In this document: one piece after another, positions 13,295-34,865 of the stretch | Layout: every line of letters starts with the position of its first letter | Numbering within the stretch: position 1 is the first letter of the stretch | Assembly: GCA_017464305.1 (NCBI GenBank) | Contig: JAFUDS010000009.1 | Coordinates: forward strand, 1 to 40,840 | Reading direction: 5' to 3' | Length of the DNA: 40,840 nt | DNA from: Clostridia bacterium | GTDB lineage: Bacteria; Bacillota; Clostridia; Christensenellales; Aristaeellaceae | The notes under the pieces: model-generated | Seen by the model: only the letters and a program-made list of their open reading frames with translations | What the model was told of the DNA's origin: nothing | Database searches by the model: none | Made by a program: the position numbers and the translations under genes

Positions 13295-13307
13295 GAAGGA
13301 TCGATTT

Positions 13308-14012: not shown

Positions 14013-14326
14013 GCTGGAGCGCATTTGTGCCCTACGTGGCGGTGATGGCGGTGGTGACCTACCTGATCCGCATGCTGCCGCTGACGGCCTTTCGCCGGCC
14101 GATTCACAGCCGATTTATTCAATCCTTCCTGACCTATATTCCCTACGCGGTGCTGGGGGCCATGACCTTTCCGGAGGTGTTTTATTCCACGGGGGATCTG
14201 CGGACCGCCGCGGTGGGTGTGGTGGTGGCGGTGATTTTGGCCTGGCGGGGGAAGAGTTTGTTGACGGTGGCCATCGCCGCGTGTTTGGCTGTAGCCGCTG
14301 CACAAGGGATATTGTTGTTGGTATAA
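14009..14326 (+). CDS. azlD: AzlD-family small permease subunit
   Basis: A 105-residue partner of AzlC with three to four helices. The family pattern YLIRMLPLTAFRRPIHSRF is followed by YIPYAVLGAMTFPEV. The ATG at 14009 overlaps the azlC stop and follows an AGGAGG at 13996-14001, which fixes the start against longer upstream readings in the same frame. Copy B of the intergenic element begins 11 bases after its stop. Confidence 0.9.
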   Translation: MSWSAFVPYVAVMAVVTYLIRMLPLTAFRRPIHSRFIQSFLTYIPYAVLGAMTFPEVFYSTGDLRTAAVGVVVAVILAWRGKSLLTVAIAACLAVAAAQGILLLV

Positions 14327-16391: not shown

Positions 16392-17075
16392 ATGCTTTCG
16401 TTTTTGAACGGGGTACGGGGCACCGGCCTGGCCGCCATCGGGCTGAAGATGCTGCTGGCCATCCTTTGCGGCATGGTGGTGGGGCTGGAACGCTCCGCCA
16501 AGAATCGGCCCGCCGGATTCCGGACCCATATCCTGGTGTGCCTGGGGGCCACGGTGGCGGCCTTGACGGGACTGTACATCTACCTGGACCTGCGGCTGCC
16601 TTCGGATATCTCCCGGCTGTCCAGCCAGGTGATTTCCGGCCTGGGCTTCATCCTGGCGGGGACCATCGTGGTGACCAAGAAACTGACCATCAAGGGGCTG
16701 ACCACGGCGGCGGGGCTGTGGACCACGGGCATCATCGGCCTGGCCATCGGCAGCGGATACTACGAGATCGGCATCCTGGGAACGGCCCTGGTGCTGATGG
16801 TGGAGGGATGGTTCGGCTGGTTCGGGGGGAACATTCGGCACCAGCCGGAATATACCCTGGAGCTGCTGTACAACGACAAAACCAGCCTGGACCACGTGTT
16901 GCGCTGCTGCAAGGATAACCATCTGGCCATCGTGAACCTGAAGATTCACGCCCTGACGGATCAGGGGGAGGCCAGCTACTCCGGCCTGGTGCAGCTGCGG
17001 GGCGGCCTGGCGGCGGAAAAATTACTGGACAAGATTCGGCTCATGCCCGGCATCGTGTCGGCGGACGAGCTGTAA
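16392..17075 (+). CDS. MgtC/SapB-family membrane protein, second copy
   Basis: A 227-residue paralogue of the upstream gene with the same motif order: LKMLLAILCGMVVGLERSAK, AGFRTHILVCLGATVAALTG, ISGLGFILAGTIVV, GLTTAAGLWTTGIIGLAIGSG. The C-terminal soluble domain (TLELLYNDKTSLDHVLRC) has an ACT-like pattern and differs from that of the first copy. It begins after a GGGAGGGGAAGG ribosome-binding site. Tandem, diverged copies suggest a heteromeric complex or specialised paralogues rather than a recent duplication. Confidence 0.85.
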   Translation: MLSFLNGVRGTGLAAIGLKMLLAILCGMVVGLERSAKNRPAGFRTHILVCLGATVAALTGLYIYLDLRLPSDISRLSSQVISGLGFILAGTIVVTKKLTIKGLTTAAGLWTTGIIGLAIGSGYYEIGILGTALVLMVEGWFGWFGGNIRHQPEYTLELLYNDKTSLDHVLRCCKDNHLAIVNLKIHALTDQGEASYSGLVQLRGGLAAEKLLDKIRLMPGIVSADEL

Positions 17076-17175
17076 AACGCGGGGCGCGAAGGGCCACTTG
17101 TTTTGGCGGGAGCTGTTGCGGGCGGACAACATCGTGTCCGGGAAGGAACAGAAAGGAAGAAAAACGGGTATCCAT

Positions 17176-20100
17176 ATGCGGGAATATACATTGGGAATAG
17201 ATGTGGGCTCCACCACCGTGAAGACCGTGCTGCTGGACGAGACCGGCAGCATGGTTTTTCATTGCTATCAGCGGCATCACGCCCACACGCAGGAGACCCT
17301 GGCGGAGATTCTGCGCCAGGCCCGGGAAGCCCTGGGGGCCTGCCGGGTTCGCTGCGCCATTACGGGCAGCGGCGGCATGGGGCTGGGTAAGGCGCTGGAG
17401 ATTCCCTTTGTGCAGGAGGTGGCCGCGGTGGCGGAGGCCCTGAAGGCTCAGGCGCCGCAGACGGACGTAGCCATCGAGCTGGGGGGCGAGGACGCGAAGA
17501 TCATCTACTTCACCGGCGGGCTGGAGGAGCGGATGAACGGGGTTTGCGCCGGGGGCACCGGCAGCTTCATCGACCAGATGGCCGCCCTGATGCAGACGGA
17601 CGCCCCGGGGCTCAACGCGGAGGCGGCCCACTACCAGGAGATTTATCCCATCGCCGCCCGGTGCGGCGTGTTTGCCAAATCGGACATTCAGCCCCTGATC
17701 AACGACGGGGCCACCCGGGCGGATCTGGCGGCCTCCGTGTTTCAGGCGGTGGTGAATCAGACCATCTCCGGCCTGGCCTGCGGCAAGCCCATTCGGGGCC
17801 ACGTGGCCTTCCTGGGCGGACCGCTGCATTTCCTGCCGGAGCTGCGGAACAGCTTTATCCGGACCCTGAAGCTGACGGACGAGACGGCCATCCTGCCGGA
17901 AAACAGCCATCTGTTCGCCGCCCTGGGGGCGGCCATGCAGGCGGCGGCGGGGGAGGCCCGGGAGCTGGACGCCCTGATCGACGCTCTGAGCCGGGGGGTG
18001 ATGCTGACCTTTGAGCTGAAGCGGATGGAGCCCCTGTTCGAAAACGAGGAGGCTTACCGGGCCTTTCGCCGCCGGCACGACCGGGCTCGGGTGAACCGGG
18101 GCTCTCTGGCGGAATACGCGGGGCCCTGCTTTCTGGGCATCGACGCCGGCAGCACCACCACGAAGCTGGCTCTCATCGGGGCGGAGGGGGAGCTGCTGTG
18201 GTCCTTCTACGCCGGCAATCAGGGCAATCCCATCCAGACGGCGCTGGACGCCCTGGGGGAATTGAAGGACCAGATGCCCGAAGGGGCTTACATCGCCCGG
18301 AGCTGCTCCACGGGATACGGCGAGGAGCTGCTGAAATCCGCCTTCTCCCTGGACGAGGGGGAGGTGGAGACCATCGCCCATGTCACCGCCGCCCGGTTCT
18401 TCGACCCGGAGGTGGACTGCGTGCTGGACATCGGTGGGCAGGATATGAAGTGCATCCAGCTGAAGAACGGCTCCGTGGACAATATTTTGCTGAACGAGGC
18501 CTGCTCCTCCGGGTGCGGGTCCTTCCTGGAGAACTTTGCCGTGTCCATGGGCTACACCGCCCCGGCCTTTGCCAAGGCAGCGCTGTTTGCGAAAAATCCC
18601 CTGGACCTGGGCACCCGGTGCACCGTGTTTATGAACAGCAATGTGAAACAGGCTCAGAAGGAGGGGGCGGACCTGCAGGATATCTCCGCGGGGCTGGCCT
18701 ATTCCGTCATTCGCAACGCCCTGTTCAAGGTCATCAAGCTGGCGGACGCCGCGGATTTGGGCCGCCGGGTGGTGGTGCAGGGCGGCACCTTCCACAACGA
18801 GGCGGTGCTGCGGGCCTTTGAAAAAATTTCCGGGGTGGAGGCGGTGTGCCCGGACATCTCCGGCATGATGGGCGCCTTTGGGGCGGCCCTGATCGCCCGG
18901 CAGCATTACGCGGGACAGGAAAGCGCGATGCCGCCCCTGGAGGCCCTGATGGGGCTGACCTGGAAAACCGCCACCACCCACTGCCAGCGGTGCGAGAACC
19001 ACTGCATGCTGACGGTGAACACCTTCCCCGGGGGCCGGCGGCACATCACCGGCAACCGGTGCGAGCGGGGCCTGGGGAAGACTGCGGAGGCGGCGGAGAA
19101 GGGCCCCAACCTGGCGGCCTACAAGCTGAAGCGGATGTTTGACTACGAGCCCTTGAAGATCGAGGAAGCGCCCCGGGGGGAGATCGGGATTCCCCGGGTG
19201 CTGAACATGTGGGAAAACTATCCCTTCTGGCATACCTTCTTTACCCAGCTGGGGTTCTCGGTGCGCCTGTCCCCGGTGTCCACGCGGAAAATCTACACCC
19301 TGGGCATGGAATTCATCCCCTCGGAAAGCGAATGCTACCCCGCGAAGCTGGCCCATGGGCATGTGCAATGGCTGATTAATCAAGGGGTGAAGACCATTTT
19401 CCACCCCAGCGTGTTCTACGAGCACCAGGAGGTGGAGGGCAGCCAGAACCATTACAACTGTCCCATGGTTTGCGCCTACCCGGAGAATTTGAAAAACAAC
19501 GTGGAGGACGTGACGGAGGGGCGGGTACGCTATATTCGGCCCTTCCTGGCCTTCACCAGCGAGAAGATTACCGCGGACAGGCTGGTACGCCTGGGCCGGG
19601 AGGAATGGGGCATTCCCGCCCGGGAGGTTCGGGCGGCGGTGCACGCGGCCTGGGAGGAACAGCGCCGGGCCAAGGCGGACGTGCGGGCGGAGGGCCAGCG
19701 GGCCCTGGCCTGGATGGAGGAGAAGGGCCGCCGGGGCATTATCCTGGCGGGGCGGCCTTACCACATGGATCCGGAGATTCACCACGGCATTCCGGAGATG
19801 ATCGCCGGATACGGCCTGGCGGTGCTGACGGAGGACAGCATTCCGGCGGATTTCGCCCCGGTCCGCCCCGTGCGGGTGAACGACCAGTGGGTGTACCATT
19901 CCCGGATGTACACCGCCGCCCAGTTTGCCGCCACCCGGGAGGACCTGGAGCTGATCCAGCTGAACTCCTTCGGGTGCGGGCTGGACGCGGTGACCACGGA
20001 CCAGGTCAGCGAGATTCTGGAGCAAAGCGGCCGGCTGTACACCGTGCTGAAGATCGACGAGGTCAACAACCTGGGGGCGGCCCGCATCCGGGTACGGAGC

Positions 20101-22954: not shown

Positions 22955-22997
22955 AAGACATTTTTCCATAGGAAGCCGAATGGAAACCGGATATAAT
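22955..22997 (+). promoter_or_regulatory. Kinase/GH13 operon promoter with AraC-type site 1
   Basis: AAGACATTTTTCCATA (22955-22970) is followed after exactly 21 bases by TATAAT (22992-22997). No normal -35 hexamer is present at the right distance; the last two bases of the site would overlap it, as expected of an activator-dependent promoter. The same 16-mer and the same spacing occur at 27991-28033, and the core recurs at 30225-30288. A weaker 9-of-12 match to the core lies 21 bases upstream (22938-22949), but it overlaps the terminator T run and may be fortuitous. Confidence 0.75.
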
Positions 22998-23030
22998 AAG
23001 GATCATCGCGGAAAAAGGAGGAATATGGGA

Positions 23031-23765
23031 ATGGATCTGGAGCATCTGATTCATGGAGATATGCCGGGGGACAAGATCGCCATCGAGCCTCAGCACGAGG
23101 AGAAGGCGGAGCGGATTTATCCCCTGCTACGGGGCCTGCTGCCGGAGGGCAAGGCCGTGGTCTGCGTCTGCGGCGGCAGCGGCGTGGGCAAGAGCGAGGT
23201 GGCCTCCCTGCTGGGCACGCGGCTGCAGGCGGAGGGGATCGGCGCCTATGTCATGAGCGGGGATAATTATCCCCACCGGATTCCTTCCCAGAACGACGCG
23301 GAGCGGGAACGGGTGTACGCCGAGGGCGGCCGGGCCGCCCTGGAAGGCTATCTGGGCACGCCTCAGGAGATTGATTTTGACCTGGTGAACCGGATTCTGG
23401 CGGATTTCAAGGCGGGCCGGAGCCCGGTGGCCTTGAAGCGCATGGGCCGGACGGAGGAGGAAAAGTGGTTTGATCAGGTGGACTTCTCCCAGACCCAGGT
23501 GCTGATTCTGGAATGGACCCATGGCAACAGCGACTATGTGAGCGGGGTGGACGTGCCGATTTTGCTGAACTCCACGCCGGAGGAAACCTTGGCCCATCGC
23601 CGGGCCCGGGCCCGGGACAAGGGGGTGGACAGCCCCTTCACCACCCTGGTGCTGGAAATTGAGCAGGAAAAGCTGAAGCGGCAGGCCCACAAGGCAAAGA
23701 TCATCGTCAGCAAGAGCGGAGAGGTGATCTCCTACGATCAGTATCGGGAACTGATGGGGGTGTGA
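23031..23765 (+). CDS. Small P-loop kinase (uridine kinase/APS kinase-like)
   Basis: A 244-residue ATP-binding protein. The P-loop GGSGVGKS is at 48-55. MSGDNYPHRIP is the substrate-lid aspartate region typical of phosphoribulokinase/uridine kinase-like folds. LILEWTHGN gives a Walker B-like strand, and LAHRRARARDKG has the Arg-rich lid. The substrate is not evident; uridine, adenylylsulfate and phosphoribulokinase specificity are not supported by diagnostic residues. AAGGAGG ends nine bases before the ATG at 23031 but only three before the in-frame ATG at 23025, favouring the former. The phosphorylase gene starts three bases after its stop, and both sit behind the regulated promoter at 22955, so a sugar or polyol acceptor related to that enzyme is a reasonable guess. 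Confidence 0.7.
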   Translation: MDLEHLIHGDMPGDKIAIEPQHEEKAERIYPLLRGLLPEGKAVVCVCGGSGVGKSEVASLLGTRLQAEGIGAYVMSGDNYPHRIPSQNDAERERVYAEGGRAALEGYLGTPQEIDFDLVNRILADFKAGRSPVALKRMGRTEEEKWFDQVDFSQTQVLILEWTHGNSDYVSGVDVPILLNSTPEETLAHRRARARDKGVDSPFTTLVLEIEQEKLKRQAHKAKIIVSKSGEVISYDQYRELMGV

Positions 23766-23767
23766 CC

Positions 23768-25261
23768 ATGATGGAAATGAACAACCGGCCCATGCTGAAC
23801 CTGTACCCGGACAGCCTGGGGAGCCGGCTTTCGGAGGCGGTGGCCTTCCTGTCCCGGCCGGAGCTGAAGGACGCCTTCGGGTCGGTGTACGTGCTGCCCA
23901 GCCTGTATCATTCCGATCTGGACCGGGGATTTTGCGTCGTGGATTATGACCTGAACGAGGAGCTGGCTTCACCCCAGGATGTGGAGGATCTGAAGGCCCT
24001 GGGGCTGGATCTGAAGCTGGATTTCGTGCTGAACCACGCTTCCGTGCAGTCCCCGCAGTTTCAGGACCTGCTGCGGAAGGGGGAGGATTCCGAGTATCGG
24101 GATTTCTTCATCGACTGGAACCAGTTCTGGCAGGGGCGGGGCGAAATGATTCCGGAGGGGTATATTCAGCCGGAGGAGCAATATCTATCCCAGATGTTTT
24201 TTCGCAAGCCCGGGCTGCCCATCCTGATGGTGCGCTTTCCGGACGGGCGGGAGGTGCCTTACTGGAACACCTTCTACCAGAAGGTCTGGGAGGAGGCGGG
24301 AGAGCGCCGCTATTTGGGCCAGATGGATTTGAACATTCGGTCGGAAAAGGTGTGGGCCTTTTATGACCAGACCCTGGCGAAGCTGGCCTCCTATGGCGCG
24401 CGGATCATTCGCCTGGACGCCTTCGCCTACGCGCCGAAGGCGCCGGGGAAGCGGAATTTCATGAACGAGCCGGAAACCTGGGAAACCCTGGCCCGGGTCA
24501 GGAAGATGGCGGATGAATACGGGCTGCGGCTGCTGCCGGAGATTCACGCGGGATACGAGGAGCAGGTGTACCGGAAGATCGCGGATCAGGGATACATGAC
24601 CTACGATTTCTTCCTGCCGGGGCTGATCCTGGACGCCATTGAGAATCACACCGGGGCTTACCTGGCGGCCTGGGCCCGGGAACAGGAGGAGCAGGGCATC
24701 CGGACGGTCAATATGCTGGGCTGCCACGACGGCATTCCCCTGCTGGACCTGAAGGGGCTGCTGCCGGACGAGCGGATTCAGGGCTTGGTTGATTTGACGG
24801 TGGCTCGGGGCGGGTATGTGAAGAACCTGCACGGGGCCAAGAACATGTATTATCAGGTGAACGCCACCTATTTCAGCGCCCTGGGCGAGTCAGAGGAGAA
24901 GATGGAGCTGGCCCGGGCCATTCAGCTTTTCATGCCGGGGAAGCCCCAGGTTTGGTATCTGGACCTGCTGTGCGGGAAGAACGATTACGCCGCCATGGAG
25001 CGGGCCGGCGAGGGCGGACACAAGGAGATCAACCGGACGAACCTGAGCTTGGCGGAGGCGGAGGGGCGGCTGGAAAATCCCTGCGTGCGGAAACAGCTGG
25101 AGCTGCTGCGGCTGCGGAGCACCCATCCCGCCTTTGGCGCGGAAAGCCGCGTGAGGGCGGAGGCGGAGGGCTCGGAGCTACGCCTGGTCTGGGAGAATGG
25201 GCCCCATCGGGCGGAGCTCCAGGCTCATCTGGTTACGGGGAAATATGAAATCCTTGTTTGA
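23768..25261 (+). CDS. GH13 subfamily 18 glycoside phosphorylase (sucrose phosphorylase-like)
   Basis: A 497-residue enzyme of the sucrose-phosphorylase group, which cleaves an alpha-glucoside with phosphate to alpha-glucose 1-phosphate. Catalytic residues fit the family: nucleophile Asp217 in RLDAFAY, acid/base Glu258 in LLPEIH, and stabiliser Asp321 in GCHDGIP. The start SLGSRLSEAVAFL, GSVYVLPSLYHSDLDRGF and FVLNHASVQSPQF also belong to GH13_18. The family includes enzymes acting on sucrose, sucrose 6'-phosphate, glucosylglycerol and glucosylglycerate; the acceptor cannot be told here. The ATG at 23768 follows GGGGGTG by about five bases; an in-frame GTG at 23762 overlaps the kinase stop. 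It is probably cytoplasmic, as no signal peptide is seen. Confidence 0.85.
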   Translation: MMEMNNRPMLNLYPDSLGSRLSEAVAFLSRPELKDAFGSVYVLPSLYHSDLDRGFCVVDYDLNEELASPQDVEDLKALGLDLKLDFVLNHASVQSPQFQDLLRKGEDSEYRDFFIDWNQFWQGRGEMIPEGYIQPEEQYLSQMFFRKPGLPILMVRFPDGREVPYWNTFYQKVWEEAGERRYLGQMDLNIRSEKVWAFYDQTLAKLASYGARIIRLDAFAYAPKAPGKRNFMNEPETWETLARVRKMADEYGLRLLPEIHAGYEEQVYRKIADQGYMTYDFFLPGLILDAIENHTGAYLAAWAREQEEQGIRTVNMLGCHDGIPLLDLKGLLPDERIQGLVDLTVARGGYVKNLHGAKNMYYQVNATYFSALGESEEKMELARAIQLFMPGKPQVWYLDLLCGKNDYAAMERAGEGGHKEINRTNLSLAEAEGRLENPCVRKQLELLRLRSTHPAFGAESRVRAEAEGSELRLVWENGPHRAELQAHLVTGKYEILV

Positions 25262-25312
25262 GAAGAAATGGCAAGCATCTCTCATGCCCCGCTGAGTTAT
25301 GACATTTTCATT

Positions 25313-25343
25313 AAGCACCCCCCCGTCTCGCGGGGGGTGCTTT
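25313..25343 (+). terminator. Terminator after the GH13_18 gene
   Basis: AAGCACCCCCC (25313-25323) pairs with GGGGGGTGCTT (25332-25342). A strong stem with a short T end. Confidence 0.7.
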
Positions 25344-25377
25344 GATCATCAAAGCATTGATTTGCGGCCATTCCTTT

Positions 25378-25400
25378 GCTTTCCCCGCTTCGCGGGGAGC
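25378..25400. repeat. CCCCGC/GCGGGG palindrome
   Basis: Another member of the short intergenic palindrome family (GCTTTCCCCGC and GCGGGGAGC around TTC). It sits between the + strand terminator and the terminator of the minus-strand ATPase gene. Confidence 0.5.
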
Positions 25401-25425
25401 TTTGCCCATCGTTTGCTTATAAAGA

Positions 25426-25454
25426 AGAGTCGCTGGCGGAAGGCCGGCGGCTCT
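25426..25454 (-). terminator. Terminator of the DUF4143 ATPase gene
   Basis: AGAGTCGCTGG (25426-25436) pairs with CCGGCGGCTCT (25444-25454), with two G-T pairs. Read on the minus strand it ends in CTCTTCTTT, 40 bases after the ATPase stop. A 23-base core (25431-25453) recurs exactly at 27018-27040, just after the next minus-strand gene. Confidence 0.65.
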
Positions 25455-25494
25455 TTGGGGCCATATTGGGGGAGCATATTCGTATCTTCCTGCG

Positions 25495-26808
25495 CTATAG
25501 AAACATGATCATATAATGCGGAATGGTGATGATTCGATTTTCGGAGACGCCGATATTCGCTCTCGCGATTTTGTATGCCAATGGCAGATCGTCCCTGCTT
25601 TTCATTAACTGATTCAGCGAGGCCGAAACCGCGTTGCGGCTCTTAAACTCCAGGGGAATGACCTGACCGTTCTGCTGCATAAGGGCGTCAATGTCCTTTC
25701 TGCTGGATTCATCCCTGAAATAATGAAGCGTGTGGCCATTCTTATGCAGCTGATCCATCAAAGCGCATTCATATACGCCCCCAACGGTATGCCCTGTCAG
25801 CACATCTTCTACGATTTGCCGCTTTAGGTCAAAGTCCCGCATAGCCATCAGGAGGCTGAGATCCGAAGGATAGATGCGGAAATTATCCGCCAGTTCATAA
25901 TCGGACAGATCATAGAGGATTCGATTTACATTCCGCGCCTGATAAACCATATCCGCCTTCATCAACCACTCCAGGCTGGAGTAATATTTTTGCGCTCGGC
26001 CTCCCTGTTCGACTTCCTTATATTGGAACTTATGGTTCTCCTTCTCCAGCAGCTGACGGGAGAGGGACAGATAACATTTTTCCGCTTTGATTTTCTCCTC
26101 TGGGGAAGCATAATGGGCAATATCGTACAGGTATCCTTGAAGCAGATCCCGCTGAACGCGGTCTGCGGCCAGGAAGTCGCGGGATTGCTGATACTGAAAC
26201 ACGACCTCCGGCATTCCGCCCAGCGCCGTGTATACTCTGAACAGCCGCAGAAGCTCGCCATGGATGGCCTGGGGAACCGGAGTGCGGGTTTCAAAGCATT
26301 CGCGCAGCTTCTCGATCAGGGACGAATCAATCCCCTGGCTCCAGAGGAATTCCTCAAAGTCCAGGCCGGCCATGGACAAATGCTCCACGTACCCCACGGG
26401 ATAGGAGGAAGGGCGTTTGTAATCAATCCCCAGCAGAGAACCGGAGGCGATGACATCGAAGCGCTGATCCTGGGCCCAAAACTTGAGAGAGGTGATGGCT
26501 TCCGGGCATTCCTGAATCTCATCCAGAAATAGCAACGTGCGATCAGGCTCCAGGGGAACCTGGGGATATCTGAATCGAATCGCTGTCAGCAGCGATTTCA
26601 CATCCAGATCTCCGCTGAAAATCTCCATGGCGGAGGGCGTTTCCTTAAAATTGATTTCCAGCACCTGATCATAGGCGGCTGCCCCGAAGGAACGAATCGC
26701 GTAAGTTTTCCCTACCTGCCTGGCGCCCTGAAGGATCAGGGCCTTCTTTTGGTCCCGCGGCTTCTGTTTCCAAGCCTGTAGCTGAGAAAGTATCTTCCGT
26801 TGCAGCAT
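25495..26808 (-). CDS. AAA ATPase with DUF4143 (AAA_14 family)
   Basis: A 437-residue protein. The N-terminal AAA_14 domain has Walker A QGARQVGKT (~28-36) and Walker B LLFLDEIQE, then IASGSLLG as sensor. The C-terminal DUF4143 domain (~220-437) ends with the usual nuclease-like core: DALMQQNGQVIPLEFKS, an E-x-K in a D-x(n)-E-x-K arrangement. These proteins are frequent in gut anaerobes and often horizontally spread; their function is unproven, though defence or mobile-element roles are proposed. It is an isolated minus-strand gene that splits the carbohydrate locus, with its own terminator and an upstream array of TTTTCGAA palindromes (26835-26920), all consistent with a mobile cargo gene. 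The ATG lies nine bases after a GGAGGG on the minus strand. Confidence 0.85.
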   Translation of the reverse strand: MLQRKILSQLQAWKQKPRDQKKALILQGARQVGKTYAIRSFGAAAYDQVLEINFKETPSAMEIFSGDLDVKSLLTAIRFRYPQVPLEPDRTLLFLDEIQECPEAITSLKFWAQDQRFDVIASGSLLGIDYKRPSSYPVGYVEHLSMAGLDFEEFLWSQGIDSSLIEKLRECFETRTPVPQAIHGELLRLFRVYTALGGMPEVVFQYQQSRDFLAADRVQRDLLQGYLYDIAHYASPEEKIKAEKCYLSLSRQLLEKENHKFQYKEVEQGGRAQKYYSSLEWLMKADMVYQARNVNRILYDLSDYELADNFRIYPSDLSLLMAMRDFDLKRQIVEDVLTGHTVGGVYECALMDQLHKNGHTLHYFRDESSRKDIDALMQQNGQVIPLEFKSRNAVSASLNQLMKSRDDLPLAYKIARANIGVSENRIITIPHYMIMFL

Positions 26809-26834
26809 CCCTCATGGCCCTCCAATCTCCGCAT

Positions 26835-26920
26835 ATCACGATTTTCGAATTCGAAAATCGTGATACATCAACATTTTCGAATTCGAAAATGTACGTTCAT
26901 CAACATTTTCGAAAATATTG
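26835..26920. repeat. Three iterated TTTTCGAA palindromes upstream of the ATPase gene
   Basis: A perfect 30-bp palindrome (26835-26864, ATCACG arms around ATTTTCGAATTCGAAAAT), a perfect 22-bp one (26871-26892, same core), and an imperfect 20-bp one (26901-26920, CAACATTTTCGAAAATATTG) lie in a row. CATCAAC occurs before the second and third. They are 27-114 bases upstream of the ATPase ATG, in its promoter region on the minus strand. They could be operators of an autoregulated gene or hairpins in its leader. Confidence 0.75.
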
Positions 26921-27013
26921 TAATCTGGGAAGCTGTTTTTGTCAAACTGAAAGACGGCAGACATCTTTCATGCTTCGATGATTTGCGACTATTTTCTTTT
27001 GATTGGTTGAAAA

Positions 27014-27040
27014 GAGCCGCTGGCGGAAGGCCGGCGGCTC
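27014..27040 (-). terminator. Terminator of the alpha/beta hydrolase gene
   Basis: GAGCCGCTGG (27014-27023) pairs with CCGGCGGCTC (27031-27040). On the minus strand it is followed by TTTTC, 30 bases after the hydrolase stop. Near-identical to the terminator at 25426. Confidence 0.7.
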
Positions 27041-27070
27041 CTCTGGGCATATGGGAAACACATTCTTCAG

Positions 27071-27952
27071 CTATTTCTGTTGACGGGAGATAGCGCTGAA
27101 CTGTTTGACGATCCAATCATGGATGACCTGGCGAACCTCGGGGCTCCAGAAATTCCCTTCATGCTCCGCACCATCCACGTAATAAGCGGTTACATCACTA
27201 TTGATTTCTTTCATGCGGGAATAGAGTGCCTCTGTCTGCTGAAAGGGAACCACGGGATCCGCTGTGCCATGGAGTAGAAGAAAGGGTGGGTAGCTCTTTT
27301 GGGCCTGCACCTGATGTACTGGGCTGCACAGGCGCAGCATCGCCTCCCATTTTTCCTTTTCCGGCCCCAGGCAGGCCGTCAGGAAAGGTTCCATCTGGGG
27401 GAAGGTATCCGGATAATGGAAAAGGACAGGTAAATCCGTCGGTGGGAAACAGGCCGCCACCGCGTTTACCGCGTCTTCCTGGGCTTCGTATTCCTCCGTG
27501 CGGAAACGAGGATCATTACCCGTCAACCCCAGCAGACAAACGGTGTTGCCACCGGAGGAGGTTCCGAAGGCGATGATCCGGTCAGGATCGATGGCATAAT
27601 CCTTCGCGTGGGCTCGGAGAAAACGAATCGCGGTCTTGACATCTTGCAGAAAAGCGGGGAAGGGGAACCCCTCCTGGGTGCTGCGATGGCTGACCGTGGC
27701 GACGGCGATGCCTTCCTCTGCGAAATGGGAGAGCATGGGTATTTCATAGTTCAGATTCGGCGTCGTCCAGGCGCTGCCCTGGACGAATAGGATCAGTGGT
27801 GCGGCTTCGACCTGAGAGCGATCGTCTCGAGGGGCCCAGGGAAGAATGAGCGTAAGCTCCTGGCCGTTTGCGGAGTAGGGAATGTGCTGAATGAGTTCCG
27901 CTTGGCCCTGCAGAGAAGGATTCATGGGAAGATGCGTGATTTCCGGAATCAT
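27071..27952 (-). CDS. Alpha/beta hydrolase, esterase-like
   Basis: A 293-residue enzyme of the BD-FAE/acetylesterase-like alpha/beta hydrolase group. LFVQGSAWTTP provides the oxyanion region, with QG in place of the usual HGG. AFGTSSGGNT (~140) holds the nucleophile Ser, LLHGTADPVVPFQQT the Asp, and GAEHEGNF the His. No signal peptide, so it is cytoplasmic; removing acetyl or other acyl groups from imported sugars is a reasonable role. The start is the ATG at 27952 (MIPEITHLP), preceded by AAAGGAGCT; a longer frame from 27997 has no ribosome-binding site. It diverges from the GH-D glycosidase gene and shares the intergenic space holding AraC-type site 2, 39 bases upstream of its start. Confidence 0.8.
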   Translation of the reverse strand: MIPEITHLPMNPSLQGQAELIQHIPYSANGQELTLILPWAPRDDRSQVEAAPLILFVQGSAWTTPNLNYEIPMLSHFAEEGIAVATVSHRSTQEGFPFPAFLQDVKTAIRFLRAHAKDYAIDPDRIIAFGTSSGGNTVCLLGLTGNDPRFRTEEYEAQEDAVNAVAACFPPTDLPVLFHYPDTFPQMEPFLTACLGPEKEKWEAMLRLCSPVHQVQAQKSYPPFLLLHGTADPVVPFQQTEALYSRMKEINSDVTAYYVDGAEHEGNFWSPEVRQVIHDWIVKQFSAISRQQK

Positions 27953-27990
27953 GAATAGATAGCTCCTTTCTATGAAAAAGCATTGAAAAT

Positions 27991-28033
27991 AAGACATTTT
28001 TCCATATGCAACAAGAGGAAAAGCACATATAAT
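27991..28033 (+). promoter_or_regulatory. GH-D glycosidase promoter with AraC-type site 2
   Basis: AAGACATTTTTCCATA (27991-28006), identical to site 1, stands 21 bases before TATAAT (28028-28033). No good -35 hexamer is present. Because the intergenic region is divergent, the same site could also control the hydrolase on the minus strand. The leader from ~28040 to the start codon is about 135 bases and carries no recognised motif. Confidence 0.75.
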
Positions 28034-28175
28034 GTCCTTGAAAGAATACGAGGAAATGGCGGGCCTGTCAAGTGCGTTGTGAAGAGGCGGACGGAAAGGC
28101 GCTGATGACGTGCGATGAAAGGGACGCGCCCGTGATTTTCAAAAAAAGAGAATGAAAAAGGAGTGGGTGAAGACG

Positions 28176-30104
28176 ATGAATTATCGGTGGCAAGTGGAAA
28201 CTGGAGGATATTTTGTTCTTTATGAAAATGAACAGCCCATCCTCATGGGATCCGCTCGGGCGGAAGATTGCGCGCGGGAGGAGATCATCGATACCCGGAA
28301 AGCCCAGCTGGTGGGGCAGGAACAGACAGAGAACGGATGGATCCTGACCTATGAAAACGAAGCCGGGCTGGTTCTGCGGGAGTATTTAGAGGTAACCTCG
28401 GCAGGGGCCACCGCTCGGTGCGGGCTATCCAGGAAGGACAGCCTTCCCGTGACCACCCGAAACCTGATTCCCCTTTCCGCTCAGGCCAAGGGGGATGAGA
28501 CGCCCTATCTTTGGCGGGATCTGGAGGCAAGAATGCTGCAGGTTCCCTATGATAATGATATGTGGATGCGATACGAGGCGGTGGCGTTGCGGGCCGGGCG
28601 GAAAAGCAGCGATTTAACCGTGCTATTTCGGGAGGACACCAGAGAGGGAATTTTGCTGGGAGCGCTGGATTTTGATTTGTGGAAAAATGCGGTGGCCTGC
28701 CCCGGCATGGACGCCCGCATTTTGGAATGCCGTTGCGGTCAAGGGGCCAGCGACGAAGGAACCCATGATTTTGAACCCCATGGCGTTGTAACGGACAAAG
28801 AGGTCTTTTCCGCTCGATTCCTAATTCAGCATGGACTGGATTGGCGGGAACTGCTGGAAAAATACGGGGACGTATTACAAGCCCAGCGGCCGATCCGCGC
28901 CTGGACGCAGGGAGTGCCTTTCGGGTTTAATAGTTATGCAGGGCTGGCAGCCACGCTGAACGCGGAGAATTTCCGGGAAAGCGGTCGCTTCGTCCGGGAA
29001 GAGCTGGTGAAACGGGGATTTGAGAACCAGGGAGTAACCTACATCAACCTGGACGGAGGTTGGCAGCGAATTCCGGAGGAGGAGATGCTGGCGATTCGGG
29101 ATGATTTGCATGCGGCTGGTCAAGGGGCGGGCATTTATGACGCGCCCTTTGCCTGCTTCTATCCGGATCTGAACACGGAAATTCCCCTGATGCCGGGGCA
29201 TACCTTCGCGGAGATCGTGCTGCGGGATCGCAAGGGAAATCCCCTGCCCCGGGTGGACCGATCCGTACCCTACGACGTGACGCATCCCCTGTGGCGGGAA
29301 TGGACGGAGAAAAAGGCGCGGCGGTTCATTGGTTGGGGATATGATTATCTGAAGATCGACTTCTTAAGCCATGGGGGAATGGAAGGAGTCCATTGGGATC
29401 CGAGGATCCGTACGGGACGGGAAGCCCTGGCTGTGGGATACCAGGCGTTAGAGGAGCTTTACAGCGAGGAAAGGATGGGACGGCCCTTCTTCCTGAGTCT
29501 GTCCATCGCGCCGCTGCTGCCCTTCGGCACGGGGAACGCCCGTCGAATTTCCTGCGACGCCTTCGGCCTGTCGGAGGATGTGGAATATGTATTGAATGCC
29601 CAGACCTATTCCTGGTGGACCCATGGCCGGCTGTATCAGTTCAATGATCCGGACCATATCGTGCTGCAGCGCAGCTTCTGCATGCTGCGGGACGCCACGG
29701 AGGGAGAGGCCCGGGCTCGGTATACCAGCGCGGTGATTGCCGGGTCGGTCATGTTGCTGTCGGAGGACTATGCTCGGCCGGGAACCCGGGAGAGGACGAT
29801 TCGCATCGCCGGCAACTCAGAGGTAAACCGGATCGCCCGGGCTGGCCGCGCCTTCCGTCCTATCGATGCCGCGGGATCCAGCGCCTGCTCTTGCTTTGTG
29901 GATCGGCAAGGGGAGGAATGCATGGCAGCCCTATTTGCTTGGCGGGAAAAGCCAGAAACAGTTCAAGTGTCTCTCGCGGAGGCGGATCTCCTGCCAGGTG
30001 TGTATGAGGATTTGTGGACAGGCCGGAGAGTATATGCCAAGGAGGGGCAGCTTTCCTGGGACTTTGAAGGGACGGACGCGGCCTTGCTGCGGAGAATTGA
30101 ATAA
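28176..30104 (+). CDS. Clan GH-D glycosidase (alpha-galactosidase-like)
   Basis: A 642-residue glycosidase. The N-terminal half (~1-250) is a beta-sandwich of the kind found in GH36-type enzymes. The barrel begins near 250 (GVPFGFNSYAGL, TYINLDGGWQ). YLKIDFLSHGG contains the presumed nucleophile Asp (KxD motif), ARRISCDAFG the presumed acid/base Asp, and YQFNDPDHIVL the NDPD motif shared with GH27/GH36. An all-beta C-terminal domain ends the chain. Alpha-galactosidase activity is the usual function of such proteins, but the exact family and substrate are unproven. No signal peptide. The start is uncertain: AAGGAG at 28158 serves the ATG at 28176, while an in-frame ATG at 28152 precedes that site. 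It is driven by the promoter at 27991. Confidence 0.75.
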   Translation: MNYRWQVETGGYFVLYENEQPILMGSARAEDCAREEIIDTRKAQLVGQEQTENGWILTYENEAGLVLREYLEVTSAGATARCGLSRKDSLPVTTRNLIPLSAQAKGDETPYLWRDLEARMLQVPYDNDMWMRYEAVALRAGRKSSDLTVLFREDTREGILLGALDFDLWKNAVACPGMDARILECRCGQGASDEGTHDFEPHGVVTDKEVFSARFLIQHGLDWRELLEKYGDVLQAQRPIRAWTQGVPFGFNSYAGLAATLNAENFRESGRFVREELVKRGFENQGVTYINLDGGWQRIPEEEMLAIRDDLHAAGQGAGIYDAPFACFYPDLNTEIPLMPGHTFAEIVLRDRKGNPLPRVDRSVPYDVTHPLWREWTEKKARRFIGWGYDYLKIDFLSHGGMEGVHWDPRIRTGREALAVGYQALEELYSEERMGRPFFLSLSIAPLLPFGTGNARRISCDAFGLSEDVEYVLNAQTYSWWTHGRLYQFNDPDHIVLQRSFCMLRDATEGEARARYTSAVIAGSVMLLSEDYARPGTRERTIRIAGNSEVNRIARAGRAFRPIDAAGSSACSCFVDRQGEECMAALFAWREKPETVQVSLAEADLLPGVYEDLWTGRRVYAKEGQLSWDFEGTDAALLRRIE

Positions 30105-30224
30105 AATATGTCAAAATGAAGCGCGCCAAAGGAGAAAGGGACCTAAAATCGACCAATAAATGTTCAAAATGAAGATGAACACAGGTAAATTTGACAAAAA
30201 TAACGGGACGGAATTGTTTGATAA

Positions 30225-30288
30225 AAGACATAATTCCATAAACTTGTGCCATTATTCCATAGACGGAAGAAACATGTTTCCATAAAAT
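30225..30288 (+). promoter_or_regulatory. Sugar ABC promoter with three AraC-type sites
   Basis: The core CATNNTTCCATA occurs at 30229-30240 (site 3, with the full AAGACAT prefix from 30225), 30250-30261 (site 4) and 30273-30284 (site 5); the start-to-start steps are 21 and 23 bases. Site 4 is 21 bases before TAAAAT (30283-30288), the same spacing as at sites 1 and 2. Site 5 overlaps that -10 box. Sites 3 and 4 thus look like an activator pair two helical turns apart, and site 5 like a repressing or competing site. The leader to the ATG at 30340 is about 45 bases. Confidence 0.8.
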
Positions 30289-30339: not shown

Positions 30340-31902
30340 ATGAAGAAACTGCTTGGCCTGGCGCTGGCGGTCGTGATGGTTCTTTCCATGATGCTGCCGG
30401 CCGCGTTCGCGGACGATGCCGTGACGATTTCCTTTTTCGACAAGAACTCGGGCGTGCGGACCTTTGATGATCCGGTGGCCAAAGAACTGGAAGCCCGTAC
30501 GGGCGTGAAGATCGACCTGATCAGCCCCTCTGGCAACCCGGCTGAGAAGCTGTCCCTGATGTTGGCGGGCCAGAATTATCCTGATATCGTGCTGATGGAT
30601 CGGTCTTCCGACATCGTGAACCAGTACATTGAAGCCGGCGCGCTGGTGAATCTGTCCGACTATCTGGATCAGATGCCCAATGTGGTGGCTATGTATGGCG
30701 ACACGCTGAACAAGACCCGTTACAGCGATGGCAACAACTACTATCTGTCCAACTGGTACGGTTACGATCCCGATCCTGTCAACGGCTTCATCTGCCGGTA
30801 TGACTACATGATCGAGCTGGTAGGCCAGGAGCGGGCTGACTCCGACGAACCTTTCACCTGGAGCGAGATGCTGGACATCCTGAAGCGCTTTAAGGAAGCT
30901 CATCCGGAAAGCACCAACGCGGTGGTTATGAGTGAGCCCAACAGTGGCGCTATCAACGGCACCTTTGCCGGCATCAACGGGATCTATCCCTTCTACGTCT
31001 CCGATGGCAAGCTGCAGATGAGCGTGCGGGATCCCGCCTTCATCGAGGCCATCCATCAGATGAACGAGCTGTATCGGGAAGGCATCCTGGATCCGGAATG
31101 GACCAGCAACTCCCAGGAACTGCGGAACCAGAAACTGTCCAACAACGGCGCCTTTGCCTATGTTGGCGCTTATTGGGACACCTGGACCCCCAGCGCGGCG
31201 CTGATGGGTTCCGAAAATGCGAACGCGGAATATCTGTCCTATAAGGTAATTCCGGATGGCGTCACCTCTGCTGATCTACCCCTGGCGGGCCGTAGCAGCC
31301 TGGGTTGGGACGCGATCGCCATCACCACCAATTGTAAGAACATCGACGCCGCCATCAAGTTTGTAGATTATTGTGCCAGCCAGGAAGGCCAGGATCTGCT
31401 GCTGTGGGGTATCGAAGGCCAGGATTGGGAATTTGTGGACGGCGTCCGTACCCCCATTGGCGACATTGTTGACCGCTATCTGGCGGATCCCTCCAACACA
31501 GTGGACCAGACTGGTATCACCAAGTGGACCTGGTTCGTCAAGAATGACGTGCATCCCGATGATGGTACCGCCTGCCGTATCTGGTTCAACACCAAGGATC
31601 GCAGCGCCACCTATGCCTATCAGAACCTGACCAATGGCTACTACGACAGCGCCGAGTTCGCCGCGTTGGAGCCGGCGGGCAGCACCATCGAAGCGCTGCA
31701 GTTCCAGGGCGTAGTCGATGTATTTGATCAGTATCATCCCCGGATGGTCAACGCGGCTACTGTGGAAGAATGCGACGCCCTGTATGCCGAAATGCTGAAC
31801 GCGCTGGAAAATGCCGGCGAGGAGAGCGTGGAAGCTTACATGAGCGAGCTGTATTTCGCCCGGCTGGATCTGTGGGGACTGCAGCCCGTGTCCAGCAAGT
31901 AA
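30340..31902 (+). CDS. Sugar ABC transporter solute-binding protein
   Basis: A 520-residue family-1 extracellular binding protein of the LplA/YtcQ size class, which captures oligosaccharides for the two permeases encoded next. A Sec signal peptide spans 1-24 (MKKLLGLALAVVMVLSMM, then AAFA cleavage). There is no lipobox cysteine, which is unusual for a Gram-positive binding protein. ISFFDKNSGVRTFDDPVAKE, YPDIVLMDRS and AIKFVDYCASQEGQDLL are typical of the fold. Codon use is more biased than in neighbouring genes, suggesting high expression. It is the first gene of the ABC operon, under the three-site promoter, and is separated from the permeases by a long hairpin that could let it be expressed at higher level. 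Confidence 0.88.
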   Translation: MKKLLGLALAVVMVLSMMLPAAFADDAVTISFFDKNSGVRTFDDPVAKELEARTGVKIDLISPSGNPAEKLSLMLAGQNYPDIVLMDRSSDIVNQYIEAGALVNLSDYLDQMPNVVAMYGDTLNKTRYSDGNNYYLSNWYGYDPDPVNGFICRYDYMIELVGQERADSDEPFTWSEMLDILKRFKEAHPESTNAVVMSEPNSGAINGTFAGINGIYPFYVSDGKLQMSVRDPAFIEAIHQMNELYREGILDPEWTSNSQELRNQKLSNNGAFAYVGAYWDTWTPSAALMGSENANAEYLSYKVIPDGVTSADLPLAGRSSLGWDAIAITTNCKNIDAAIKFVDYCASQEGQDLLLWGIEGQDWEFVDGVRTPIGDIVDRYLADPSNTVDQTGITKWTWFVKNDVHPDDGTACRIWFNTKDRSATYAYQNLTNGYYDSAEFAALEPAGSTIEALQFQGVVDVFDQYHPRMVNAATVEECDALYAEMLNALENAGEESVEAYMSELYFARLDLWGLQPVSSK

Positions 31903-32027: not shown

Positions 32028-32975
32028 ATGAACGTGGCTTTGCCAAAGAAGCATAAAAAAGCGCTTCGTAGCCGCCTATGGGATCAGCGATATCTATTTT
32101 TGCTGATGATCCCGGGCATCATCTGGGTGCTGATCATTTGCTATGCTCCCATGACGGGACTGTATATGGCCTTCACGAATTATCGCCCCTCCCAGAATGG
32201 ATATTTCTATGATCTGTTCAATGGCAAATTCGTGGGCTTCCAGTGGTTTGATTATTTTTTTAAGAATGACTTCGCCATGATTATGCGGAACACGCTGGCC
32301 ACCAGCGTGCTGACGCTGCTCTTTTCCTTCCCGGCGCCCATTATCCTGGCGGTGATGCTTAATGAGTTGAAAAGCATCCGGATGAAGAAGTTCATTCAGA
32401 CCGCTTCCTATCTGCCTTATTTTATCTCCTGGGTTATCGCGTCCAATATTTTCCTGACCTTCCTGGCGGGAAATGGCCTGATCAATGATATTTTGTTGGC
32501 TCTGGGGCTTACCAGCGAGCGGATCCTCTTCTTCCAGCATGGCCCCTATTTCTGGTGGATCATCGCCATCGCCAATACCTGGAAGGGCATGGGGTACAAT
32601 GCCATCATTTATCTTTCCGCCATTTCCGGCATCGATGAACAGCTGTACGAGGCAGCGGAGATTGACGGCGCGACGCGGGTGAAGCGGATTTGGCATATCA
32701 CTCTGCCTACTATCCGGCCCACTATCTCCATCCTGCTGATTCTGGCCATTGGCGGCATCCTGTCCACGGGCTTTGAGCAGCAGCTGCTGATGGGAAATAA
32801 TGCGATTCTGAACTACTCGGATGTACTGGATACCTACGCCTACCGATACGGCCTGGCTAAGGGGATGTATTCCTACGGCACGGCGGTTGGCCTGTTCAAA
32901 TCCATTGTGTCCTTCATCCTGGTGATGAGCGCGAACAAAATTACGGCGAAGCTGAACGACTCCGCCCTGTTCTGA
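32028..32975 (+). CDS. Sugar ABC transporter permease, LplB-type
   Basis: A 315-residue inner-membrane subunit with six predicted helices. LFLLMIPGIIWVLIICYAPM and GLYMAFTNYRPS at the N-terminus are characteristic of the LplB/YteP group. The EAA loop EAAEIDGATRVKRIWHITLP (~209-228) contacts the ATPase. No ATP-binding subunit is encoded in the cluster; as is common in Firmicutes, a shared MsmX-like ATPase elsewhere probably energises it. AGGAGGAG precedes the ATG. Confidence 0.92.
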   Translation: MNVALPKKHKKALRSRLWDQRYLFLLMIPGIIWVLIICYAPMTGLYMAFTNYRPSQNGYFYDLFNGKFVGFQWFDYFFKNDFAMIMRNTLATSVLTLLFSFPAPIILAVMLNELKSIRMKKFIQTASYLPYFISWVIASNIFLTFLAGNGLINDILLALGLTSERILFFQHGPYFWWIIAIANTWKGMGYNAIIYLSAISGIDEQLYEAAEIDGATRVKRIWHITLPTIRPTISILLILAIGGILSTGFEQQLLMGNNAILNYSDVLDTYAYRYGLAKGMYSYGTAVGLFKSIVSFILVMSANKITAKLNDSALF

Positions 32976-32994: not shown

Positions 32995-33918
32995 ATGACG
33001 GCAATTGCGCGTAAACCCGTATCCAATAAAATCAAGGAGAAGCGGACGGCTGGCGAATGGGCGCTGGATATTTTCAAGGTGCTGTTTCTGGCTCTGGTCA
33101 CCATCGTGACGGTTTATCCCTTCTGGAACATTTTTGTGATCTCGCTGAATGACGCTACGGACGCGGTGCGCGGGGGGATCTATTTCTGGCCTCGGGTGTT
33201 CTCTCTGTACAGCTATCAGGAGATTCTGGGCCGCTCCGCCTTCCAGCATTCCATTTTGGTCACCTTGGCCCGAACCCTCATTGGCACGCCTTTGGCGGTG
33301 ATGGCGACCTCAATGCTGGCGTATCCCCTGTCCCGGAAGGATTTGGTGGGCCATAAGTTCTGGAGCTTGCTGTTTGTCTTTACCATGTATTTTGGCGGCG
33401 GCCAGGTGCCCTATTATATGGTGCTGAAGAATCTGGGCTTGCTGGATAATTTCCTGGTGTTTATTTTTCCGCTGATCATGAACGTGTACAACATGATTTT
33501 GATCCGCTCCTATATCGATTCCATGCCGGATTCTCTGTTTGAGGCAGTTCGTATCGACGGTGGCAACGACTTGGTAATTTTCTTCCGCATCGTGCTGCCC
33601 CTGGCCAAGCCCATCCTGATGACGGTGGCGCTGTTCGTGGCCATCAATCAGTGGAACAGCTGGTTCGATGCTTATCTGTATACATCGTCTCAGAACTTGA
33701 AACCTATGCAGTCCATCCTGGTGGAGATTCTGAATCAGTACCAGACCGGCGCTACCACCTCTCAGCAGATGTCCGCCGGTAAGACCGGCGCTACGGTGAC
33801 TCCGGACAGCATCCGTATGGCGGCCACCATGGTAGCTACCATCCCGATTATCCTGGTGTATCCCTTCATTCAAAAGTATTTCGTGAAGGGGATCATGCTG
33901 GGCGCAGTGAAGGGATAA
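32995..33918 (+). CDS. Sugar ABC transporter permease, LplC/YtcP-type
   Basis: A 307-residue permease partner with six predicted helices. TVYPFWNIFVISLNDATDAV at the N-terminus and the EAA loop EAVRIDGGNDLVIFFRIVLP (~182-201) identify the LplC/YtcP group; the C-terminus YPFIQKYFVKGIMLGAVKG is the canonical ending. It follows the LplB-type gene after 19 bases with an AAAGGAGGG ribosome-binding site. Together the two form the membrane channel for the upstream binding protein. Confidence 0.92.
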   Translation: MTAIARKPVSNKIKEKRTAGEWALDIFKVLFLALVTIVTVYPFWNIFVISLNDATDAVRGGIYFWPRVFSLYSYQEILGRSAFQHSILVTLARTLIGTPLAVMATSMLAYPLSRKDLVGHKFWSLLFVFTMYFGGGQVPYYMVLKNLGLLDNFLVFIFPLIMNVYNMILIRSYIDSMPDSLFEAVRIDGGNDLVIFFRIVLPLAKPILMTVALFVAINQWNSWFDAYLYTSSQNLKPMQSILVEILNQYQTGATTSQQMSAGKTGATVTPDSIRMAATMVATIPIILVYPFIQKYFVKGIMLGAVKG

Positions 33919-33953: not shown

Positions 33954-34865
33954 ATCAGCGAAAAGAAGCGTTACGAGGCGGAGACTCCGGAGGTAAACAA
34001 AACCTCCACCTATCACATCATCGAGTATCTGCAAAATAAAAACAGCTCTCTGTATATGAAAAGCTGTGGTATGCAGCGCTGTCTGCCGGGGTATACCTAT
34101 CCTCACAATGCCCGGGAGGGCTATCATCTCCACGTGGTGCTGTCTGGCAAGGGGATATTGCGGACCGGTGGGCAGGAGTTTCAGATCCGGGCCGGGCAGA
34201 TGTTCGTGCTGAAGGATCGGGAAGAGGCATTCTATCAAGCGGATATGCAAGACCCTTGGCATTACGTCTGGGTGACCTATAGTGGGTTCAATGCGCTCCG
34301 GTATATTCAGAGCGCCGGCTTTGAGGAAGGAATCTACGTGCAGGATTGCAACTTGGATTCAAATCGCTTTGCCGGAGTGGTGCGGGAAATCCTGGAACGA
34401 CCGCATCTGAACATTTCCAGCGAGGTATACCGCACCAGCCTCGCCCTGCGCTTTCTGTCCCTGGCCATTGAGTCCTACGAGGTTAATGAGGAGGGGACCG
34501 AGCAGCGTGGCGGGCTGACGACGGACGAATATGTGGAGTATGCTATTCGGTTTATCGAGATGAATTTCGCCAGTGTGCGCATCAGCGATGTGGCGGAATA
34601 TATCGGTGTCAACCGCACCTACTTCACCTCCATCTTTAAGAAAAAGATGATGGTTTCTCCCCAGGAATATCTGATGAGCGTGCGCATGAGCAAGAGCAAA
34701 GAGCTGTTGCGCCGCACGGATGTTCCTATCAATGTGGTGGCCAGGGAGGTGGGGTACGAGGACCAACTGGCTTTTTCCAAGATGTTTCGAAAGAAATATG
34801 GCCTCAGTCCCGAGCAATATCGCAAACAGAAAAACGCGGAGCGCACGATAGAGCAATCTGAATAA
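33954..34865 (+). CDS. AraC-family regulator, probably starting at AUC
   Basis: A 303-residue regulator. A cupin-like sensor domain (~35-150: GYTYPHNAREGYHLHVVLSG, AGQMFVLKD) is followed by two AraC helix-turn-helix motifs (VRISDVAEYIGVNRTYF, then INVVAREVGYEDQLAFSKMF) and the FRKKYGLSPEQYR end. Open frame and family-like sequence (SEKKRYEAETPEVNK, TYHIIEYLQNKNSSLY) continue upstream of the first ATG (34056) to an ATC at 33954, seven bases after AGGAGG; no ATG, GTG or TTG lies between the upstream stop (33933) and it. The ATG at 34056 has no ribosome-binding site and would cut 34 residues. As the last gene of the sugar operon it is the natural candidate to bind the CATNNTTCCATA sites. Confidence 0.85.
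   Translation: MSEKKRYEAETPEVNKTSTYHIIEYLQNKNSSLYMKSCGMQRCLPGYTYPHNAREGYHLHVVLSGKGILRTGGQEFQIRAGQMFVLKDREEAFYQADMQDPWHYVWVTYSGFNALRYIQSAGFEEGIYVQDCNLDSNRFAGVVREILERPHLNISSEVYRTSLALRFLSLAIESYEVNEEGTEQRGGLTTDEYVEYAIRFIEMNFASVRISDVAEYIGVNRTYFTSIFKKKMMVSPQEYLMSVRMSKSKELLRRTDVPINVVAREVGYEDQLAFSKMFRKKYGLSPEQYRKQKNAERTIEQSE

Follow-up and report, generated by a model that had tools for sequence, protein, structure and literature searches.

A repeated site before three sugar-gene units of a Clostridia bacterium points to a probable local regulon of AraC type

Does a short word that recurs before several sugar genes mark them as one regulon and, if so, which protein reads it? This question is raised by a stretch of 40,840 nucleotides from Clostridia bacterium (assembly GCA_017464305.1, contig JAFUDS010000009.1, positions 1 to 40,840, hereafter the window), in which the 12-base core CATNNTTCCATA stands before a kinase-phosphorylase unit, before a gene for a glycosidase-like protein, putatively of clan GH-D, and before an ABC transporter operon that contains a gene for an AraC-family regulator. 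We propose, with a probability of about 0.85, that these genes form a local AraC regulon in which the protein encoded at 34056-34865 would activate all three units from GACATNNTTCCATA sites that abut the -35 region. Five exact copies of CATNNTTCCATA start at 22959, 27995, 30229, 30250, and 30273, all on the plus strand, and the first three are preceded by AAGA and thus share a longer word. The initial annotation of this DNA had reported these copies and none other on the plus strand; this was borne out, and a scan of both strands of the window found no further exact copy on the minus strand either. In 100 dinucleotide shuffles of the window the word occurred 0.08 times on average and once at most. 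With up to 2 mismatches it occurs 39 times in the window against a shuffle mean of 30.8, which is background level, and so we rely on exact and composite matches alone.

The copies have a fixed place in their promoters. From the end of the 12-base core to the -10 box there are exactly 21 bases in all three promoters (TATAAT, TATAAT, and TAAAAT), and the hexamers at the -35 position that a 17-bp spacer would give are TAGGAA, TATGCA, and TAGACG, none of them near TTGACA, just as had been claimed. Before the kinase-phosphorylase unit the single good site is operator 1 (GACATTTTTCCATA, 22957-22970, plus strand), followed by the -10 box TATAAT at 22992-22997. Before the GH-D gene the single site is operator 2 (again GACATTTTTCCATA, 27993-28006, plus strand) with its -10 box TATAAT at 28028-28033. 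Both have the exact core. The ABC promoter has three copies on the plus strand at periods of 21 and 23 bp, as annotated: the distal repeat, operator 3a (GACATAATTCCATA, 30227-30240, exact core); the proximal repeat, operator 3b (30250-30261), which follows 21 bp after 3a and abuts the -35 region; and site 5 (30273-30284), which overlaps the -10 box TAAAAT (30283-30288). Direct repeats about 21 bp apart of which the last abuts or overlaps the -35 region are the class-II layout of AraC-type activators, and the ABC promoter of the window has this layout.

The genome to which the window belongs (G000 in our numbering of genomes; 2.53 Mb, 68.6% complete) has eight exact copies of CATNNTTCCATA, of which five are those in the window. 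Of the other three, two lie inside open reading frames (ORFs), one of 560 aa and one of 640 aa that by eye encodes GGDEF/EAL domains; the third lies in a gap of 72 bp between two genes, both of which are on the other strand. Since the shuffle rate scaled to 2.5 Mb gives about 5 expected exact copies, these three are at chance level. As a sharper test, the composite motif GACATNNTTCCATA-N21-TATAAT was scanned with its reversed pattern as a control. With up to 2 mismatches it is found in G000 at the three promoters only (kinase 0, GH-D 0, and ABC 2 mismatches) and at 3 mismatches at one further place, while the reversed pattern, allowed up to 3 mismatches, gave no match in this genome. Among 20 relatives the composite with up to 3 mismatches was found at 49 places against 17 for the reversed control; a single mismatch is seen at three of them, each the ABC-operon promoter of its genome (G119, G196, and G179). 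Part of the excess over the control is unexplained; an instance is a place that is nearly identical in G132, G091, and G119 and has 2 mismatches.

The comparative evidence is strongest at the ABC promoter. The operon, on the plus strand, encodes a solute-binding protein (SBP; 30340-31902, PF01547, with AlgQ1/AlgQ2 and other family-1 binding proteins as matches in the PDB) and two permeases (32028-32975 and 32995-33918, both PF00528). Homologues of the SBP at an E value of 1e-120 or better were found in 17 of 308 genomes of the family, the window's own counted, and as the contig of G155 is cut at the gene start, 16 promoters could be read. In 14 of these 16, the window again counted, the proximal site stands before a -10 box; their SBPs are at least 78% identical and they carry six genus labels. 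The distance from the proximal site to the -10 box is 20 bp in one, 21 bp in nine, and 22 bp in four; outside the window, in 13 genomes, the box itself reads TATAAT, TACAAT, TATAGT, or TACGAT. When spacings of 20 to 22 bp were compared, the distal repeat was best at 21 bp in 13 of the 14, and at exactly 21 bp it has at most 3 mismatches in 11 of the 14 against a rate of 0.003 at random positions. Mononucleotide shuffles of the 160-bp upstream regions reached the observed composite score in 0 of 1000 cases for 13 promoters and in 7 of 1000 for the weakest, that of G048. Among control windows from the same loci, none of about 2,800-2,950 reached the score for 11 of the 14; matches did occur for the other three, 5 in 2973 for the window itself, 12 in 2930 for G120, and 8 in 2953 for G048, and for the window and G120 other candidate sites in the loci may account for these matches. 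In the alignment of the 14 promoters the commonest base is found in 12-14 sequences in the proximal box (except at the N position, where it is found in 8) and in 6-14 in the distal box, compared with 5-11 between the boxes and 4-9 further downstream. The tandem pattern was found in 5 of 200 family genomes and its reversed control in none; four of the five have it at the ABC promoter beside an AraC orthologue, and the fifth, G196, has it at an unrelated place and also has an AraC orthologue. A second tandem pair in G196, on contig C103, has a period of 20 and no -10 box at the right distance and was set aside.

The regulator gene (34056-34865, plus strand) encodes an AraC/XylS-family protein with an N-terminal cupin ligand domain (PF02311, AraC_binding, 6.8e-17) and a C-terminal double helix-turn-helix (HTH; PF12833, HTH_18, 5.6e-22; PF00165, 3.9e-15). 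It likely has an N-terminal extension, because the 34 residues in frame upstream of the first ATG (33954-34055) are similar to those of relatives. The expected start of this extension, 7 bp after AAAGGAGG, reads ATC in the window; either the start codon is a rare one or the assembly is wrong here. Full-length orthologues (56-68% identical) are present in 9 other genomes of the 200-genome family sample, and three more were found in same-genus genomes (G202, G209, and G205). At E 1e-40 matches extend to 19 of the 200, those beyond the orthologues being of lower identity or partial, and a search of the genome contigs with the AraC protein yielded a single, distant locus, with 43% identity across 71 residues. 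In nine relatives the SBP gene, both permease genes, and the AraC gene follow directly on one contig, and in G179 both permease genes and then the AraC gene. Eleven of the 14 genomes with the site have a full AraC orthologue and G139 has a partial one. G126 and G269, the two without a site at the ABC promoter, have SBPs of 73 and 68% identity and best AraC matches of 32 and 30%. That the AraC gene closes the ABC operon holds in the window; in many relatives a GH36 gene comes after it (10 of 13 with an AraC of at least 56% identity, the others being G120, G209, and G205). The AraC gene of G205 (59%; locus L178, 10239-11024) stands alone, without a transporter, between a Pyr_redox_2/Fer4_20 oxidoreductase gene and an AddB-like gene.

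From these observations a mechanism can be proposed. The AraC-family protein, with its cupin sensor and two HTHs, would bind the GACATNNTTCCATA sites. At the ABC promoter a dimer on the direct repeats 3a and 3b, 21 bp apart, would sit beside the -35 region. There it would probably touch RNA polymerase and substitute for the missing -35 element, the class-II activation of E. coli araBAD. The single copies at the same distance from the -10 box would place the kinase-phosphorylase unit and the putative GH-D glycosidase gene under the same control, the regulator having one good contact at each of these promoters. Since the regulator gene is the last of the ABC operon, activation would be self-reinforcing. 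If this is the case, the sites provide a concrete operator sequence for AraC regulators of sucrose/alpha-galactoside-type loci; none of the published text reached by our literature search, which covered its sources in part, describes this operator site.

Several results weigh against this proposal. Single copies are uninformative in relatives, because in a scan of 21 relatives GACATNNTNCCATA was matched 30 times and the reversed control 29 times, which is chance level. A second repeat 21 bp upstream is poor at the two other promoters (3 mismatches at the kinase promoter, 5 at that of G209, and 7 at the GH-D promoter). The composite at the GH-D promoter has at most 3 mismatches in five of nine genomes (the window, G120, G196, G252, and G307), a count made without a shuffle control, and 4-6 in the remaining four. 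The repeats in the corresponding cassette of G209, described below, are weak as well, with 1-3 mismatches. Comparative support for an AraC-type regulon is strongest at the ABC promoter; those of the kinase and GH-D genes have one good site each and are less conserved. The co-occurrence of motif and regulator is likewise uneven: it is seen at the ABC promoters, while G205 has a 59% identical AraC and no site before its kinase gene, and G138 keeps a 65% identical AraC, followed by GH36, with no composite site at up to 3 mismatches in the genome. These two, together with G307 and G261, which have the site and in which no AraC orthologue was found, and with 16 other AraC-domain matches in the window's own genome, would suit a different explanation, namely, that the sites are real AraC-type operators read by another AraC-family protein and that the linked gene is incidental. 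We consider this quite unlikely, for the AraC gene lies directly behind the transporter genes in the relatives listed above, the genomes whose best AraC match is 30-32% lack the sites, and the promoter of the AraC gene of G209 has such repeats itself. Moreover, the contigs of G307 and G261 end within the permease genes of the ABC operon, and in G138 a fragment of permease 2 is all that is left upstream of AraC, most of the operon being gone.

The strict 20-22 bp to the -10 box and the lack of a TTGACA-like -35 hexamer might also suggest that the motif belongs to the core promoter, as an unusual -35 for a sigma factor, and is not an activator site. This is very unlikely. The start of the 12-base core, 33 bp before the -10 box, is beyond the -35 position; the core also recurs another 21 bp upstream, across variable DNA, and is confined at up to 2 mismatches to three promoters in the genome. 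Least credible of all is that the five words are intergenic DNA copied locally by chance and without function: they are clustered in 7.3 kb, but their flanks are unrelated by eye, and genomes of six genus labels share the site and its spacing even though the intervening and surrounding DNA has diverged. A further question is the role of the third copy at the ABC promoter. The initial annotation suggested that it may repress, and a triple operator with a repressor site over the -10 box would agree with site 5 being an exact copy 23 bp after 3b. This position has 2-8 mismatches in the 13 other genomes; a match with at most 2 mismatches is found in 5 of the 14 promoters and an exact one in the window alone. 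Part of the match is explained by a CCA before the -10 box that is kept in 10 of the 14. Repression from site 5 thus found no support; a triple operator is unlikely, and site 5 is probably not an operator.

The genes of the first unit suggest a pathway through sucrose phosphate. The kinase gene (23025-23765, plus strand) encodes a P-loop kinase of PRK/APS-kinase-like type (GGSGVGKS; PF00485 and PF01583 just under their cut-offs), a candidate sucrose kinase that is 55% identical to the kinase encoded beside GH36 and sucrose 6F-phosphate phosphorylase (SPP) genes in locus L051 of G196. We favour the start ATG 23025; the TTG at 22881 chosen by the ORF caller is probably wrong, because its ORF would put operator 1 inside the gene. 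The second gene (23762-25261, plus strand) encodes a GH13_18 phosphorylase resembling IcSPP, with 6s9u as best PDB match (615 bits, the next best being 298) and YYQVNAT common to both. The entry 6s9u is IcSPP, a sucrose 6F-phosphate phosphorylase of high specificity whose clade has a YYQ motif (PMC6720575). A YYQ, putatively that of loop A, is present in the sequence of the window's phosphorylase. The kinase gene was found at E 1e-50 in 8 of 45 same-genus genomes, the window's own included; among these eight the site before it is present in the window and G209, and an AraC orthologue in the window, G209, and G205. In G026, of the same genus, kinase and phosphorylase are about 80% identical, the kinase gene has no site before it, and a search at E 1e-40 gave no AraC match. 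In G196 the kinase and phosphorylase genes lie downstream of AraC and GH36 inside the ABC operon, so that co-regulation would come by another layout; its phosphorylase frame is split near the end, and a second kinase-phosphorylase copy is on another contig.

Between the phosphorylase gene and the next promoter lie an AAA_14/DUF4143 ATPase gene (25495-26808) and, divergent from the GH-D gene, a gene on the minus strand for an alpha/beta hydrolase of BD-FAE esterase type (27071-27997, PF20434, 1.8e-42), whose ORF start overlaps operator 2. The putative GH-D clan glycosidase-like protein of 650 aa (28152-30104, plus strand) gave no match in Pfam and NCBIfam searches and weak ones in the PDB (6lcj alpha-galactosidase, E 9.8e-6; 4nx0 GH27, E 2.5e-5). 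An antisense CATTTTTCCATA within the GH-D coding sequence of loci L051, L053, and L054 falls on the conserved peptide WKNA and was not counted as an operator.

The sister species G209 shows how such a regulon could outlive the replacement of its transporter. On either side its flanking DNA is 93-97% identical to that of the window. Between 25251, at the end of the phosphorylase gene, and 34903, the only long match to the G209 segment (L177, 8557-16281) is the AraC gene, which is inverted and 69.5% identical; apart from it, two short stretches match, over 77 and 208 columns. The G209 AraC is 65% identical to the window's regulator, and the G209 cassette encodes an SBP different from that of the window, along with two permeases, a protein of 228 aa that belongs to no family, a DUF624 protein, and an ABC ATPase. 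The G209 kinase promoter keeps GACATTTTGCCATA-N21-TATAAT, which alone is no proof of selection because identity is about 97% over the whole stretch. In the G209 cassette both divergent promoters, among them that of the AraC gene, have 21-bp repeats with a -10 box 21 bp further on (TACCAT and TATAAT). This suggests that one operator code serves the two cassettes. We tentatively go further, at somewhat less than even odds, and suggest that the operator word may be a portable code, the resident kinase-phosphorylase operator being read by any related AraC that comes in when the ABC cassette is exchanged, with the window species and G209 as two states of the exchange. If this is true, sugar-uptake cassettes would be swappable at one locus while the catabolic genes stay inducible. 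As a separate observation, genes for a MobA/MobL relaxase and a large serine recombinase (12776-14242 and 16454-18436) lie near the same sugar cassette in locus L051 of G196, a hint of mobility.

How does this locus compare with known systems? In streptococci, the msm and raf operons have an AraC regulator of MsmR/RafR type whose target types are an ABC importer, a GH36 enzyme, and a GH13_18 enzyme. The S. pyogenes MsmR motif ACTGTGACCATAA, as given in PMC9722767, also contains CCATAA; the likeness to MsmR/RafR is drawn from gene types and this motif. A GH36 alpha-galactosidase gene directly follows AraC in L051 (2754-4946) and also in L047, L048, L176, and L182, and the GH36 protein of G196 is nearest to AgaSK in the PDB. 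The Rgaga1 locus of Ruminococcus gnavus has, in the portions of two reports available to us, agaR, an ABC transporter, SPP, and AgaSK (PMC6521584) and the same gene types (PMC7688924); these portions name no binding sites of AgaR. It is like the G196 order SBP-permease-permease-AraC-GH36-kinase-SPP, as compared by gene list. The window differs from Rgaga1 in that its kinase-SPP genes are a separate unit with an operator of their own and that the ORF list has no GH36-sized ORF after AraC, no GH36 search of the window or of the incomplete genome having been made. The sugar and the inducer we infer from gene content; our leading guess is that the substrate is a sucrose- or raffinose/alpha-galactoside-type oligosaccharide, taken up and broken down inside via sucrose phosphate, because GH36 follows AraC in relatives and Rgaga1 has the same gene types.

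The regulon would be of a familiar type, with a layout close to the arabinose switch of E. coli. There, araI1 and araI2 have a period of 21 bp and the -10 box begins 20 bp after araI2; the values in the window are 21 and 21. The two regulators share the cupin and double-HTH architecture at an overall identity of 25%. The window's protein is not an arabinose AraC of the E. coli type (model NF007860, 100.2 bits against a cut-off of 208) and, unlike E. coli AraC, is encoded at the end of the operon. Its sensor domain also matches BgaR of Clostridium perfringens, with 52 bits over residues 3-99. The half-site of E. coli AraC is TAGC-N7-TCCATA (PMC4514859). The second box, TCCATA, is identical in the I1 half-site and in the sites of the window, whereas the first box is GACAT at closer spacing in the window. 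On the protein side, the HTH2 helix reads GYEDQLAFSK in the window's regulator and GFDDQLYFSR in E. coli AraC, with D-Q-L-x-F-S in common, whereas HTH1 differs. Thus the protein agrees with the site: the HTH2 helix is kept with the TCCATA box, and HTH1 is changed with the first box. These two systems therefore offer a natural test of the AraC recognition code, since at 25% identity HTH2 and TCCATA are kept while HTH1 and the first box differ together.

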